DNA of 64,000 nucleotides from an uncultured Clostridia bacterium (GTDB lineage: Bacteria > Bacillota > Clostridia > Christensenellales > Aristaeellaceae), in NCBI GenBank assembly GCA_946411525.1, contig CAMKEI010000006.1, positions 1-64,000 of the forward strand. The letters are read 5' to 3'. Below, piece by piece: positions 41,825-60,898 of this stretch. The first letter of the stretch is position 1; the number at the start of each line of letters is the position of its first letter. The translations under genes were made by a program, and so were the position numbers. A model generated the notes under the pieces. That model did not search any database, was not told the origin of the DNA, and saw nothing but the letters and a program-made list of their open reading frames with translations.

Positions 41825-42048
41825 GCGGACGGCCGGAGCGGCGGGAAGCCCCGGCCCCGGCACAGGCCGGATCAGCTGCATGGTCCGGCTTTTGTCATGC
41901 CTGATTTCCTGCGGATTCTCCTTCCGGCAGCCCGCCGGCCGGCAGTTGCGGAACAGCGGAAGTCCATGTAAAATACCGGTAAAGAAACATCCCGGGGTTG
42001 CAGGTGCGCGGATCCCGGAAAACAGGAAACCGGAACGGAGGTTTTCCG

Positions 42049-43134
42049 ATGACGGCGTTTGCAAACAGCCTGACAACAAACATCATCGTAACCATTCTGA
42101 TGCTGCTCATGGTCTTTCTGCTGCCCTGGCTGGACCGCCGGATCTGCAGAAGGCTCGGGCTGAACCTGCAGGGCGGCGTCAGCGCCAACCCGCAGGCGGA
42201 AAGGCTGCTCCGGATGCGCCGGATCCTGCTGTACGCGGTTTTCGGGCTGTACCTGCTCGCCGTTGCGTATATCGTTTTCTTCTCCCGTTCCGCCACCAAG
42301 GATTACCAGGTGCATATCGCCCTGTTCTCAGACCTGAAGAACGCCGTCCGGATCGATTTCGGATTCCTCGGGTTTATCAAAACGGTCTTTACCGACGGCT
42401 TCCGGGTGGCCGCCTCGCATGTCCGGATCGAGAAGGCGGAGGACATCGCGCAGGTCTACATGAACGTCATGCTGTTCGTGCCGATGGGTTACCTGCTGCC
42501 CTACCTGTTCGGATGGTTCAGGGCAAAGGTGCGGTGCCGCCCTGCGCTGGCCTGTTTTATCATCGCTTTGCTGATCGAAAACCTGCAGCTGATCTTCCGC
42601 CGCGGATTTTACGATATGGACGACCTGGTCGCCAACACTGCCGGCGGAATCCTCGGCCAGTTCCTGTATATTTCCGTGGCCTATGTGGTGACTCATCCGG
42701 ACTGGCGGAAGGAACGGAAATCCTACCGGCGGTGGAAGCGGAACGCCCGGACCCGCACGCTCTACCCCTTCGCGCGCCGGATGGGGCTGACGCGCACCAC
42801 CCTGCGCGCCTCTGATGAGGAAGCCGTCTGGGATTTCTATGTGATGAAACTGGGGTTCCGCCTGATCAGGCAGATCGTTCCCCTGGATTCCCCCGGCACG
42901 GACATGCTGCTGCAGATAGGGAATATGCAGGCAGAAATCCGCTGCGCCAACACGGAAGAGGCCATCCCGCCGCAGACGCTGACCCTGTCAGTACGCAGGC
43001 TTCCGCCGGTCATCCGGCGGCTGAGGGAAAACGGTATCCCTGTCAGCGAAATCACCCAGGACAGGTATTCCGGCCGGCGCTGCGTCAGCCTGTCCGGACC
43101 GGACGGCGTCACGATCCTGATCATTGAAGGCTGA
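42049..43134 (+). CDS. VanZ-like membrane protein with C-terminal VOC/glyoxalase-like domain
   Basis: VYMNVMLFVPMGYLLPYLF...ALLIENLQLIFRRGFYDMDDLVANTAGGILG (VanZ) then TLRASDEEAVWDFYVMKLGFRLI (VOC). Confidence 0.75.
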   Translation: MTAFANSLTTNIIVTILMLLMVFLLPWLDRRICRRLGLNLQGGVSANPQAERLLRMRRILLYAVFGLYLLAVAYIVFFSRSATKDYQVHIALFSDLKNAVRIDFGFLGFIKTVFTDGFRVAASHVRIEKAEDIAQVYMNVMLFVPMGYLLPYLFGWFRAKVRCRPALACFIIALLIENLQLIFRRGFYDMDDLVANTAGGILGQFLYISVAYVVTHPDWRKERKSYRRWKRNARTRTLYPFARRMGLTRTTLRASDEEAVWDFYVMKLGFRLIRQIVPLDSPGTDMLLQIGNMQAEIRCANTEEAIPPQTLTLSVRRLPPVIRRLRENGIPVSEITQDRYSGRRCVSLSGPDGVTILIIEG

Positions 43135-45152: not shown

Positions 45153-45273
45153 TTCTTAGTTTCAGAATTGATCCGTCCAAGTACAGAACAACGGGCACGA
45201 AGCTTTTTCAGAGACGCCCGGTCCGGGCTTCCCCGGTGGGTCACATATCTTCCGGAAGGGGATGCGGCCGCAG

Positions 45274-46488
45274 ATGAGAGACTGCTACGAGCTTTCGACC
45301 AACGCTTATTTTTTCTATCTGGAACAGGAACAGAAATCCTGGATGTCCGGCCGGGTGCTTTTTGACGCCCCGGTTGACGTTCCTCTCCTTCAGAAAGCCG
45401 CCGATGAACTGTTCCGGGCCATGCCCTTCCTTTCTGTCAGGAAGGAAGTCCCGCCGGAGGGAGACCGGTATGTGCTGGTTCCCTGCAGCCTGCCGTTCCG
45501 CGTCACGGACCGGTCGGAAAAAACCTCGCCGGAAAGCCGGGAAAGCGGCGGAGCCCTGATCTCCGTGTCCTGTGAGGGCAGCGCGCTTTACCTGGAAATG
45601 TCCCACGCCCTGACCGACGGCTGCGGGTTTGTCGCCGTCATGCGGTACCTGGTCATCCGCTACCTGTCCCTGCTGTGGGATGATCAGCCGGAACCTGCCG
45701 GTTCCTTCAGTCAGTCCTTCCCGTATGATTACGCCGATCCGCTTGATTCCGTCCCGGAAACCGCAGACAGGTTTGAGTTCGCCTGTCCCCGCGTTCAGGT
45801 CTTTGAGGAAGGGGAACTGGACCCCGGAAACCTCCGCTCCTTTTCCCTTGCCTGCGACGAAAAGGCGGTCACGGATCTCGCCAGGGATGCTGAAGGCAGT
45901 TTTTCCGGGGTGCTCGCCGGCGCGCTGGGCAGCGCGCTGACAGCCTGCAAATCCGGAACGGAACCTGTCGTCGTCACCTGCCCGATGAACATGCGCGGCG
46001 CCCTCGGATGCAGGCAGACCCTGCAGAACTGCACCCAGAGCATGCGGTACGTTTTCCCCGCTGCGATGGAAAAATACACTTTTCAGCAGCGGCTGTCCCT
46101 CCTGAAGGGTCAGCTGTATATCCAGCGGTCGGAGGAATACTGCCTCCCCCGGTTCGCGGAGTGGCGCGCCCAGCTGCAGGCGCTTCGGTCCATCCCGACC
46201 ATCTCCGGAAAGGCGGAAGCCCTGCGCGCGTCGATTCAGCTTTCCCCCTTCCCGATCGTATCTGACCTGGGGACCGTCGATTTCGGAAAAGGGAATCCGC
46301 ATGTCCGGAATATCCGGATTGCATACCCCGTCGCCGGAAGTGCGGGAATCCTCCTCGTCGCCCACCGTTTCGAAGGCCGGTGCCGCCTGGATATCTCCTC
46401 CGCGGTCCGCAGCGGCCTCTGGCTGGATCACTTCCGCCGGATCCTGGCCGGTGCCGGCGTCGAAAACGAACTGATCGAAACCCCCTGA
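45274..46488 (+). CDS. Condensation/alcohol-acetyltransferase-like acyltransferase
   Basis: LYLEMSHALTDGCGFVAVMRYLVIRYL carries HxxxDG motif of the CoA-dependent acyltransferase/condensation superfamily. Confidence 0.7.
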   Translation: MRDCYELSTNAYFFYLEQEQKSWMSGRVLFDAPVDVPLLQKAADELFRAMPFLSVRKEVPPEGDRYVLVPCSLPFRVTDRSEKTSPESRESGGALISVSCEGSALYLEMSHALTDGCGFVAVMRYLVIRYLSLLWDDQPEPAGSFSQSFPYDYADPLDSVPETADRFEFACPRVQVFEEGELDPGNLRSFSLACDEKAVTDLARDAEGSFSGVLAGALGSALTACKSGTEPVVVTCPMNMRGALGCRQTLQNCTQSMRYVFPAAMEKYTFQQRLSLLKGQLYIQRSEEYCLPRFAEWRAQLQALRSIPTISGKAEALRASIQLSPFPIVSDLGTVDFGKGNPHVRNIRIAYPVAGSAGILLVAHRFEGRCRLDISSAVRSGLWLDHFRRILAGAGVENELIETP

Positions 46489-46514
46489 CCGGGGGGGGGA
46501 CGGAGTTGAAAATA

Positions 46515-48338
46515 ATGAAGTTTCGGATACCTGGGGGAAAGTCTTCCCACGGAATCGTGGAGCGCCTGCTGGACAAGGCGACGCAGGTCAGGATCATCAA
46601 TGAGATCGCCAATTACGCAGCCACGCTCATCGACGCGATCCTCATCACCCGTTACCTCGGCAGCGACGCCGTGTCGGCGTATGGACTGGCGATGCCCGCC
46701 TTCGTGTTTCTGCCCGCCCTGGGCGGAACGATTGCCAACGGCGTCAATAAGCTTTGCGGAAACAGCATCGGAAGCGGCGATCTCGAAACGACGAACAAGG
46801 CTTTCTCCAGCAGCCTGATCGGTGGAATCTCACTTTCCCTCCTCCCGATGTTCCTGCTGCTGTTCTTATCCATGCCGCTGGGCGTCGTGCTGGGCGCCGC
46901 GGGCTCCGCAAGCGGTCTTCAGGTGCAGGTCAGTGATTATCTGCGTGGCATGGCTCCCGGTGCCCCTGCCTTTGTGCTGATCATGATCCTGATTCCTTTC
47001 ATGCAGATCAACGGGGATCATACCCTCCTGACAGCCGCTGTGACGGGAATGTCCGTACTGGACATCATCTTCGACCTGCTGTGTGTTTTCGTCTTCAGGG
47101 GCGGCCTTTTCGGCATGGCGCTCGCTTCTTCACTGAGCTACTGGGCGGCGGCGCTGGTGATGAGCGCGTCCTTCCTGAAAAAAGAGCGGGTGATCCGTTT
47201 CCGTTTCGGGGACTGGGACGGACACCTGTTCTACAGCGTGCTTTCCCAGGGCATCCCGTATATTATCCGCCAGGGCTGCAACCTGCTCCGTTCCCTGGGC
47301 CTGAACCAGGTGGTGGTTCATCTTCTGCCGGTCGGGACGCTGCCCGTCTATTCCGTCGTCTCCAGCATGCAGCGGGTCATCTACACGCCCGGTTCGGGCA
47401 TCGGGGACGGCACCCTGCTGGTTTCAAGCATGATGTACGGCGAAGAGGACCGGCATGCCCTCGGAAGAACGCTGCAGGAAGGAATCAGGCTGTCCTTCCT
47501 GCTGAACGGCTTCGTCGTTGCCGCCGGGCTGATCTTTGCCCCGCTGGTGATGTCCCTGTACCTGGCTTCCGATCCTGCCCTGATCCAGCCGGCAGCCGCC
47601 GGCCTGCGGCTGGCGGTGCTCAGCGCGATCCCGTTTTCCGTACAGATCATGTACCGAAGCTATCTTCAGGGGATCAACCGCCCGTCTGAAGTGGTCCTGA
47701 TGACGGTACACAACGAACTGATCCTGCCCCTGTTCTCAGCCTTTATCCTGTCCTTGCTCCTGTCCGTCACCGGTTTCTGGCTCTCGTTTACAATCCAGGA
47801 ATTACTGACGCTCCTCATGCTGTTCTTCATCATCCGGAAAAAAAGCGGCAAAAACCGGATCGGCTGGGAAACCCTCACGATGCTCCCGCCGGAATTCGGC
47901 GTTCCGGAAGAGTGCCGGATTTCCTGCCGGATCAGAAGTCAGGAGGACGTGCTCCGCTTTTCGGAGCAGGTCCAGCAGTTCTGCGTTCAGAAGCGGCAGG
48001 ACGAGCGCAGCGCCATGATCCTGGCGCTGTGTGTCGAGGAAATCGGCGTCAACATCTTCAAGTTCGGCATGACGCAGCAGCACCAGCACTGCGAGATCCT
48101 GCTGTATTATTCAGCCGGCAGGTGGACCCTCCGCTTCCGGGACGACTGTGACGCGTTCGATCCGGTATCCTACCTGAAATCCTTTGAGACGGAGGAGCCG
48201 GGCAACCGTTTCGGTCTCCGCCTGGCGCTTTCCCTGGCCCGTGAAGCGGTGTATATCCGTTCCATGAACATCAACAACCTGCGGATCCGGATCTCTCCCG
48301 CGGAAGAGGCGGCGCCTGCTCTGCCGCCGGACCCGTAA
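46515..48338 (+). CDS. MATE-type transporter fused to C-terminal RsbW/SpoIIAB-like HATPase domain
   Basis: Multi-TM MATE-like region (IDAILITRYLGSDAVSAYGLAMPAFVF) then MILALCVEEIGVNIFKFG and WTLRFRDDCDAFDP, ATPase-like boxes. Confidence 0.75.
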   Translation: MKFRIPGGKSSHGIVERLLDKATQVRIINEIANYAATLIDAILITRYLGSDAVSAYGLAMPAFVFLPALGGTIANGVNKLCGNSIGSGDLETTNKAFSSSLIGGISLSLLPMFLLLFLSMPLGVVLGAAGSASGLQVQVSDYLRGMAPGAPAFVLIMILIPFMQINGDHTLLTAAVTGMSVLDIIFDLLCVFVFRGGLFGMALASSLSYWAAALVMSASFLKKERVIRFRFGDWDGHLFYSVLSQGIPYIIRQGCNLLRSLGLNQVVVHLLPVGTLPVYSVVSSMQRVIYTPGSGIGDGTLLVSSMMYGEEDRHALGRTLQEGIRLSFLLNGFVVAAGLIFAPLVMSLYLASDPALIQPAAAGLRLAVLSAIPFSVQIMYRSYLQGINRPSEVVLMTVHNELILPLFSAFILSLLLSVTGFWLSFTIQELLTLLMLFFIIRKKSGKNRIGWETLTMLPPEFGVPEECRISCRIRSQEDVLRFSEQVQQFCVQKRQDERSAMILALCVEEIGVNIFKFGMTQQHQHCEILLYYSAGRWTLRFRDDCDAFDPVSYLKSFETEEPGNRFGLRLALSLAREAVYIRSMNINNLRIRISPAEEAAPALPPDP

Positions 48339-60565: not shown

Positions 60566-60898
60566 ATGAAAAAGATGCTTTTCCCGCTGAAGCCCGATCT
60601 CCGGAAAAAGGAAGAGCGGATCATTCTCAGCGTCGTTAACAATCTTTTTTCGGTATCGCTTATTTCCCTGATGACGGTTCTGGTCGGAACAATCCTGGAC
60701 GGACTGATTACCATACGCCTCCGCGACGACTGCAAAGCCTTCGACGCCACCCGGCGCGACGCGATCATGCATCCGGAAGACAACCTTTCCAACGTCGGCA
60801 TCCGGATCCTGAACTCCATCGCGAAGGATATCAACTACTACAGCACCCTGGATATGAACTACCTGACGATGCACATCAGGCAGGGCAGTACCTCATGA
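60566..60898 (+). pseudogene. Apparent internally deleted relative of the MATE-HATPase fusion
   Basis: N-terminal MATE-like stretch SLISLMTVLVGTILDGLIT joins directly to IRLRDDCKAFDATRRDAIMHPEDN...NNVGIRIL-like ATPase end, matching RFRDDCDAFDPVSYLKSF in the 46515 gene. Confidence 0.6.

Follow-up and report, generated by a model that had tools for sequence, protein, structure and literature searches.

The window, a 64-kb stretch of DNA, carries at 46515–48338 (+) a gene that encodes a MATE transporter fused to an RsbW/SpoIIAB-type (HATPase_c_2) domain. It is a single open reading frame of 607 aa (ATG at 46515, stop codon ending at 48338). A first-pass annotation of the same DNA had proposed both these coordinates and this domain composition; the former were borne out by the reading frame, and the latter by Pfam MatE and HATPase_c_2 matches, AlphaFold modeling, and a fold search. 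A putative ribosome-binding site (GGAG at 46502–46505) lies 9 nt 5′ of the ATG, and the gene starts 26 nt past the stop codon of an upstream gene (45262–46488, +), with which it is probably co-transcribed. The upstream gene encodes a 408-aa protein without a Pfam family, in which the motif SHALTDG, read by eye, resembles the HHxxxDG of condensation/acetyltransferase enzymes. A conserved link between the two genes was considered and rejected: relatives of the 408-aa gene occur in 10 other genomes, none of them at the fusion loci examined.

The transporter domain comprises residues ~14–444 (46554–47846, +) and has 12 predicted transmembrane helices, which in the AlphaFold model run from H14–48 to H390–444. 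Two stretches matching Pfam MatE (5.7e-25) span the two six-helix bundles, and the NCBIfam model TIGR00797 (matE) matched at 1.8e-34, under the curated cut-off of that model. Profile matches in PDB were DinF-BH and PfMATE, with E-values down to 7e-48. Asp40 in helix 1 (46632–46634, +) aligns with the conserved helix-1 Asp of both proteins, the DinF-BH position being Asn in entry 5c6n, and is at least 90% conserved across the fusion family. In MATE transporters, the helix-1 Asp is used in ion coupling. The window protein thus shares the transporter core and this Asp with DinF-type proteins and PfMATE (4lz6, 3vvn, 3w4t); unlike it, those proteins end after helix 12 and have no cytoplasmic domain. 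Modeled with AlphaFold at full length (pLDDT 90, pTM 0.91), the window protein shows a defined arrangement of its domains.

The tail (residues ~466–594; 47910–48296, +) matched HATPase_c_2 at 5.7e-5 when the whole protein was searched and at 4e-6 when the tail was searched by itself, which fell 0.1 bit short of the Pfam cut-off; all 58 tails in the family alignment matched the same family (best, 4.9e-17). This excludes a tail without an HATPase_c match, an outcome that the first-pass annotation had named as fatal to its proposal. Modeled alone, the tail adopted an RsbW-type fold (pLDDT 87). In a fold search with this model, 16 of the 17 PDB matches at E ≤ 0.001 were RsbW-type anti-sigma factors, the best structural matches being UsfX, SpoIIAB, and RsbW; Foldseek matches to 8ih8, 1l0o, 1th8, and 6m37 had a probability of 1.0, indicating a GHKL fold of the anti-sigma type. 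A single-sequence search of PDB with the tail gave no match, so that profile and fold searches were needed to identify it; the best hit of the profile search in PDB was RsbW (0.0033).

The source genome is a 2.45-Mb draft (85% complete, 113 contigs) with five full-length copies of the fusion, four besides the window copy (25–32% identity). Matches were found in 31 of 61 related genomes, the source included, with up to seven copies per genome, and at least 566 relatives were confirmed in GTDB genomes; the 80 among the matches listed came mostly from rumen and gut Clostridia MAGs. The fusion is thus no isolated case but a member of a large multi-copy family. Across 399 evenly sampled Bacillota genomes, MATE proteins with a tail were rare but came from several families: the profile of the window protein's group, subfamily I, found five genomes besides the source, and that of subfamily II two more. 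Subfamily II (L178–L186) and subfamily III (L222, L224, L225) are two further divergent tailed groups in the same genus. The subfamily III tails are very degenerate and have no Pfam match, and they were assigned by a conserved EE motif and small home-made profiles, whose E-values are approximate. In the tree, tailed proteins cluster together on long branches, compatible with one or several fusion events, and the window protein forms a long branch inside subfamily I. A free-standing 140-aa protein without a MATE part (L223:4670–5089, genome G020) is nearest to the fused tails and may be a split or precursor form.

The N box of the window tail, E508-E509-x-x-x-N513 (48036–48053, +), retains the catalytic Glu (E509) and the Mg-binding Asn (N513); it is invariant in alignment A3, and both residues are present in all 109 subfamily I tails. 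The G1 box, D543-D-C545-D-A-F-D-P550 (48141–48164, +), has Cys in place of Gly, and the G2 box, F566-G567-L-R-L (48210–48224, +), has lost its first Gly, with the lid shortened to 17 residues versus 21. Over six box positions, the window protein reads E-N-D-C-R-G, versus E-N-D-G-G-G in 62 of 62 separate kinases; neither the G1 (DxG) nor the G2 (GxG) glycine pattern of RsbW/SpoIIAB kinases is found in it. The RsbW/SpoIIAB-like boxes of the first-pass annotation need one correction: LRFRDDCDAFDP departs from a normal G1 box, with Cys at the first Gly position of DxGxG, and G2 lacks its first Gly.

Erosion of the boxes is common in the family. Scored by the common patterns, a complete box set is found in none of the 109 subfamily I tails and in none of the nine subfamily II tails. 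E, N, and D are universal in subfamily I, in which the G1 Gly is replaced by Cys in 97% of tails (Gly in 62/62 separate kinases), the first G2 Gly is retained in ~10%, and the lid has 13–19 residues versus 21. All nine subfamily II tails lack the Mg-binding Asn, and subfamilies II and III have lost this Asn plus other residues with an unchanged operon context. A distant member, L209, is nearly canonical, with a full lid and GGLG, its G1 Gly being replaced by Ala. The fused tails are under purifying selection despite their eroded ATP boxes: tail dN/dS was 0.03–0.42 for computable pairs, close to that of the MATE part, and this holds for subfamilies II and III too. Three cysteines, Cys490, Cys506, and Cys545 in window numbering, co-occur in 102 of the 109 subfamily I tails, two of them at positions where separate kinases have Ala and Gly. 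The GTDB locus set was picked by the subfamily I peptides [RK]DDCx[AP]F[DN]P or LC[IVL]EE[MI][AT]xN, and cysteine and box counts for this set are partly conditioned on that search pattern; the same Cys is present in nearly all of 33 members (L001–L036) from a full-length search made with no peptide pattern.

We examined the genes flanking the 80 loci, most of them from draft MAGs and only 58 flanked by 1.5 kb or more of sequence on each side. A same-strand STAS, SpoIIE, or separate kinase gene lay within 3 kb at 32 loci (median gap, 8 bp), and no partner genes adjoined the other 48. STAS was found at 27 of the 80 loci, SpoIIE (PP2C phosphatase) at 15, and all three genes at nine. A separate intact kinase was encoded at 19 of the 32 linked loci and, in another set, at eight of the nine loci of subfamily II; none was detected in the stretch examined for the remaining one, L184. 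Within 3 kb of the fusions, STAS, SpoIIE, and kinase domain matches numbered 74 on the same strand and 0 on the opposite strand in 417 kb; beyond 3 kb, there were eight and four, respectively, in 729 kb. In 14 genomes of the genus, a same-strand SpoIIE or STAS gene lay within 3.5 kb of 16 of 45 tailed versus two of 104 untailed MATE genes (Fisher p = 5e-8), the untailed set being those among the matches listed, with the weakest hits left out. Fusions from distant Bacillota families gave the same picture: all seven had STAS and/or SpoIIE within 4 kb, with SpoIIE near six and only STAS in the stretch examined for L218, and neither gene was found near two MATE loci without a tail that this search also returned. 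The clearest layouts are a tandem SpoIIE-kinase-STAS-tailed MATE array (L222, L224) and STAS-SpoIIE-fusion-(STAS-APH-kinase) (L040, L049). The phosphoacceptor Ser is retained in at least 98 of 103 partner STAS proteins. Thus, the STAS partners expected in the first-pass annotation are strongly linked to relatives, together with SpoIIE, but not to the window copy: no STAS or SpoIIE gene occurs anywhere in the 64-kb window. Other contigs of the source genome encode two SpoIIE and three STAS domains together with a single strong canonical kinase domain, so that any switching of the window copy would take place in trans.

Several neighbors deserve mention. The SpoIIE partners are membrane or sensor proteins in their own right (dCache, HAMP); one adjoining a fusion (L053:1713–3890) has a dCache_1 domain, which may be an extracellular input. 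At L040:11789–13381 and ~10 similar loci, a single protein that adjoins the fusion combines STAS, an APH/TIGR02172-like kinase, and a canonical RsbW-type domain. An unannotated family of ~200 aa (alignment A6) directly follows many STAS genes (L192:1718–2332, L116:8638–9225, L068:9373–9987, and others); it has no Pfam match, and its EE motif, LRLLTEEMMGMM, resembles an N box without the Asn.

A sigma output encoded nearby was sought with a sigma-factor profile, which recovered sigma genes at their expected positions in spoIIA operons, and was rejected. The only same-strand sigma gene within 3 kb of a fusion was that of L064, which belongs to a separate spoIIA-type operon. At L002, L021, and L025, an ECF sigma gene lies 42–63 bp away in convergent orientation. 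Apart from L064, no sigma target was found encoded with the switch set at the fusion loci.

Given that its nucleotide boxes have decayed and that relatives have intact kinases alongside, the fused tail would be likelier to serve as a docking pseudokinase than as an active kinase, and its designation as an "ATPase" in the first-pass annotation is no longer favored. As E, N, and D persist in subfamily I and L209 has a full lid and GGLG, ATP binding or STAS phosphorylation may survive in some tails. We propose, with a probability of roughly 0.55, that a partner-switching system has the window protein, a transporter of the MATE family, as its output, and that docking of STAS on the tail gates transport. 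The transporter is placed at the output because STAS, kinase, and phosphatase form a complete switch without the tail, no sigma target is present, and the transporter carries a non-canonical RsbW-like domain. In this scheme, sensor-linked SpoIIE phosphatases would dephosphorylate STAS and the separate kinase would rephosphorylate it; one of the two forms of STAS would bind the RsbW-like tail on the cytoplasmic side and thereby open or block the transporter. The tail would act as a docking or gating pseudokinase rather than as the kinase of the switch, and for the window copy the partners would come from other contigs. Gene linkage does not fix the direction of signaling. Between the "membrane-bound sensor" and the "regulated exporter" suggested by the first-pass annotation, the latter fits better.

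Partner switching is known mainly for the control of sigma factors, with a few other outputs. RsbW, SpoIIAB, and UsfX share with the window protein the fold and sequence profile of the tail and the linkage to STAS and SpoIIE; in the window protein, by contrast, the tail is joined to a 12-helix transporter, the G1 and G2 glycines are replaced, the lid is shortened, and no cognate sigma gene accompanies the operon. Non-sigma outputs, such as type III secretion under Bordetella BtrU/V/W and the Vibrio SypE/SypA system, have been reviewed (PMC8256260); these systems likewise comprise STAS, a kinase, and a PP2C phosphatase and have an output instead of, or alongside, a sigma factor, but here the transporter itself carries the HATPase-like domain. 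SulP/SLC26 proteins also bear a partner-switching domain at the C terminus of a transporter (PMC8256260); theirs is STAS, the substrate of the kinase, and not a kinase-like partner, and the transporter fold differs. A full-text search, the coverage of which left out many subscription papers, turned up neither a MATE-HATPase_c_2 fusion nor a transporter as the target of a partner switch, in agreement with the first-pass view that this architecture has no described function. There is an even chance, in our judgment, that the family represents an undescribed class of signaling-gated transporters, in which a partner switch acts directly on a transporter via a pseudo-RsbW tail, so that export would be controlled rapidly, after translation, and with no need for a sigma factor. 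If the tail does gate transport, the reach of this phosphorylation switch would extend to direct action on a membrane transporter, and there would be a reason why abundant rumen Clostridia hold up to seven such copies. The family would also offer a testable case of a kinase domain that became a regulated docking domain, with L209 as a natural intermediate and subfamilies II and III as the extremes.

The alternative that survives best, although we consider it rather doubtful, is that the MATE domain senses a substrate and controls an active kinase tail that phosphorylates STAS, with the output, sigma or other, lying elsewhere: a partner-switching counterpart of CbrA. Fusions of a transporter with a GHKL-fold domain in one polypeptide are already known in the SLC5-STAC histidine kinases CbrA and CrbS (PMC7096432, PMC13022988, PMC5715377), STAS genes are linked to the fusions, and the catalytic Glu, Asn, and Asp are kept in subfamily I, with L209 nearly canonical. 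However, an intact kinase is often encoded in the same operon, subfamilies II and III occupy the same operons despite the loss of the N-box Asn and more, and there is almost no sigma gene nearby. CbrA and CrbS are SLC5 proteins with a DHp domain and a response regulator, and the window protein, a MATE core plus HATPase_c_2 only, has none of the SLC5, STAC, DHp, and response regulator features; its tail is of the RsbW type and its partner would be STAS. On the strength of the near-canonical tail of L209, some members may nevertheless work in this way.

That the tail serves only to bring STAS, kinase, or phosphatase to the membrane or to hold it there, without gating transport, appears improbable. 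Such a role would suit ATP boxes that are eroded within a conserved fold, and SpoIIE partners that are membrane or sensor proteins; a tether, however, has no need for a MATE core that keeps its helix-1 Asp and family conservation under purifying selection like that on the tail, nor does it account for the defined domain arrangement of the model. It is more improbable still that the window protein is an ordinary MATE exporter whose tail is a functionless relic. Although the protein is divergent, its window has no STAS or SpoIIE, and a seemingly decayed copy lies at 60566–60898, every family-invariant tail residue is present (F489, E508, E509, N513, D543, F548, P550, G567, and N587) in an intact frame, and STAS, SpoIIE, and a kinase domain are encoded elsewhere in the genome. 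Finally, an assembly or annotation error joining two genes, which the first-pass annotation had raised and which a fragmented draft might invite, was rejected as having a negligible chance, given four paralogues, matches in half of the related genomes, and the recurrence of this domain order across hundreds of independently assembled genomes, other families and the one-contig genome G075 among them.

The preferred reading, a partner switch gating a transporter, has possible parallels in the same gene clusters. Directly upstream of a MATE-HATPase fusion, L048:4673–6292 encodes an SDF (sodium:dicarboxylate) symporter (SDF, 2e-23). A home-made profile, and no other search, picked up an HATPase-like region at its N terminus, so this protein is possibly a second transporter type with such a domain. 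STAS-condensation domain fusions (L219:3251–4888, L218:325–1944) and an NRPS module with A, PCP, and C domains (L218:1948–5592) sit between STAS and the MATE-HATPase gene, which hints at a peptide-like substrate in the L218/L219 family. A nonribosomal peptide as the general substrate was rejected, AMP-binding genes being near a few loci only (L056, L068, L072, L218). Two further open reading frames of the window may be recorded. The 110-aa frame at 60566–60898 (+) joins a MATE-like helix 1 (ILDGLIT) straight to the last ~57 residues of a tail (RLRDDCKAFD...) and is either an internally deleted further MATE-HATPase copy or an assembly error. At 41998–43134, one frame combines a VanZ domain with a glyoxalase/bleomycin-resistance-type domain.
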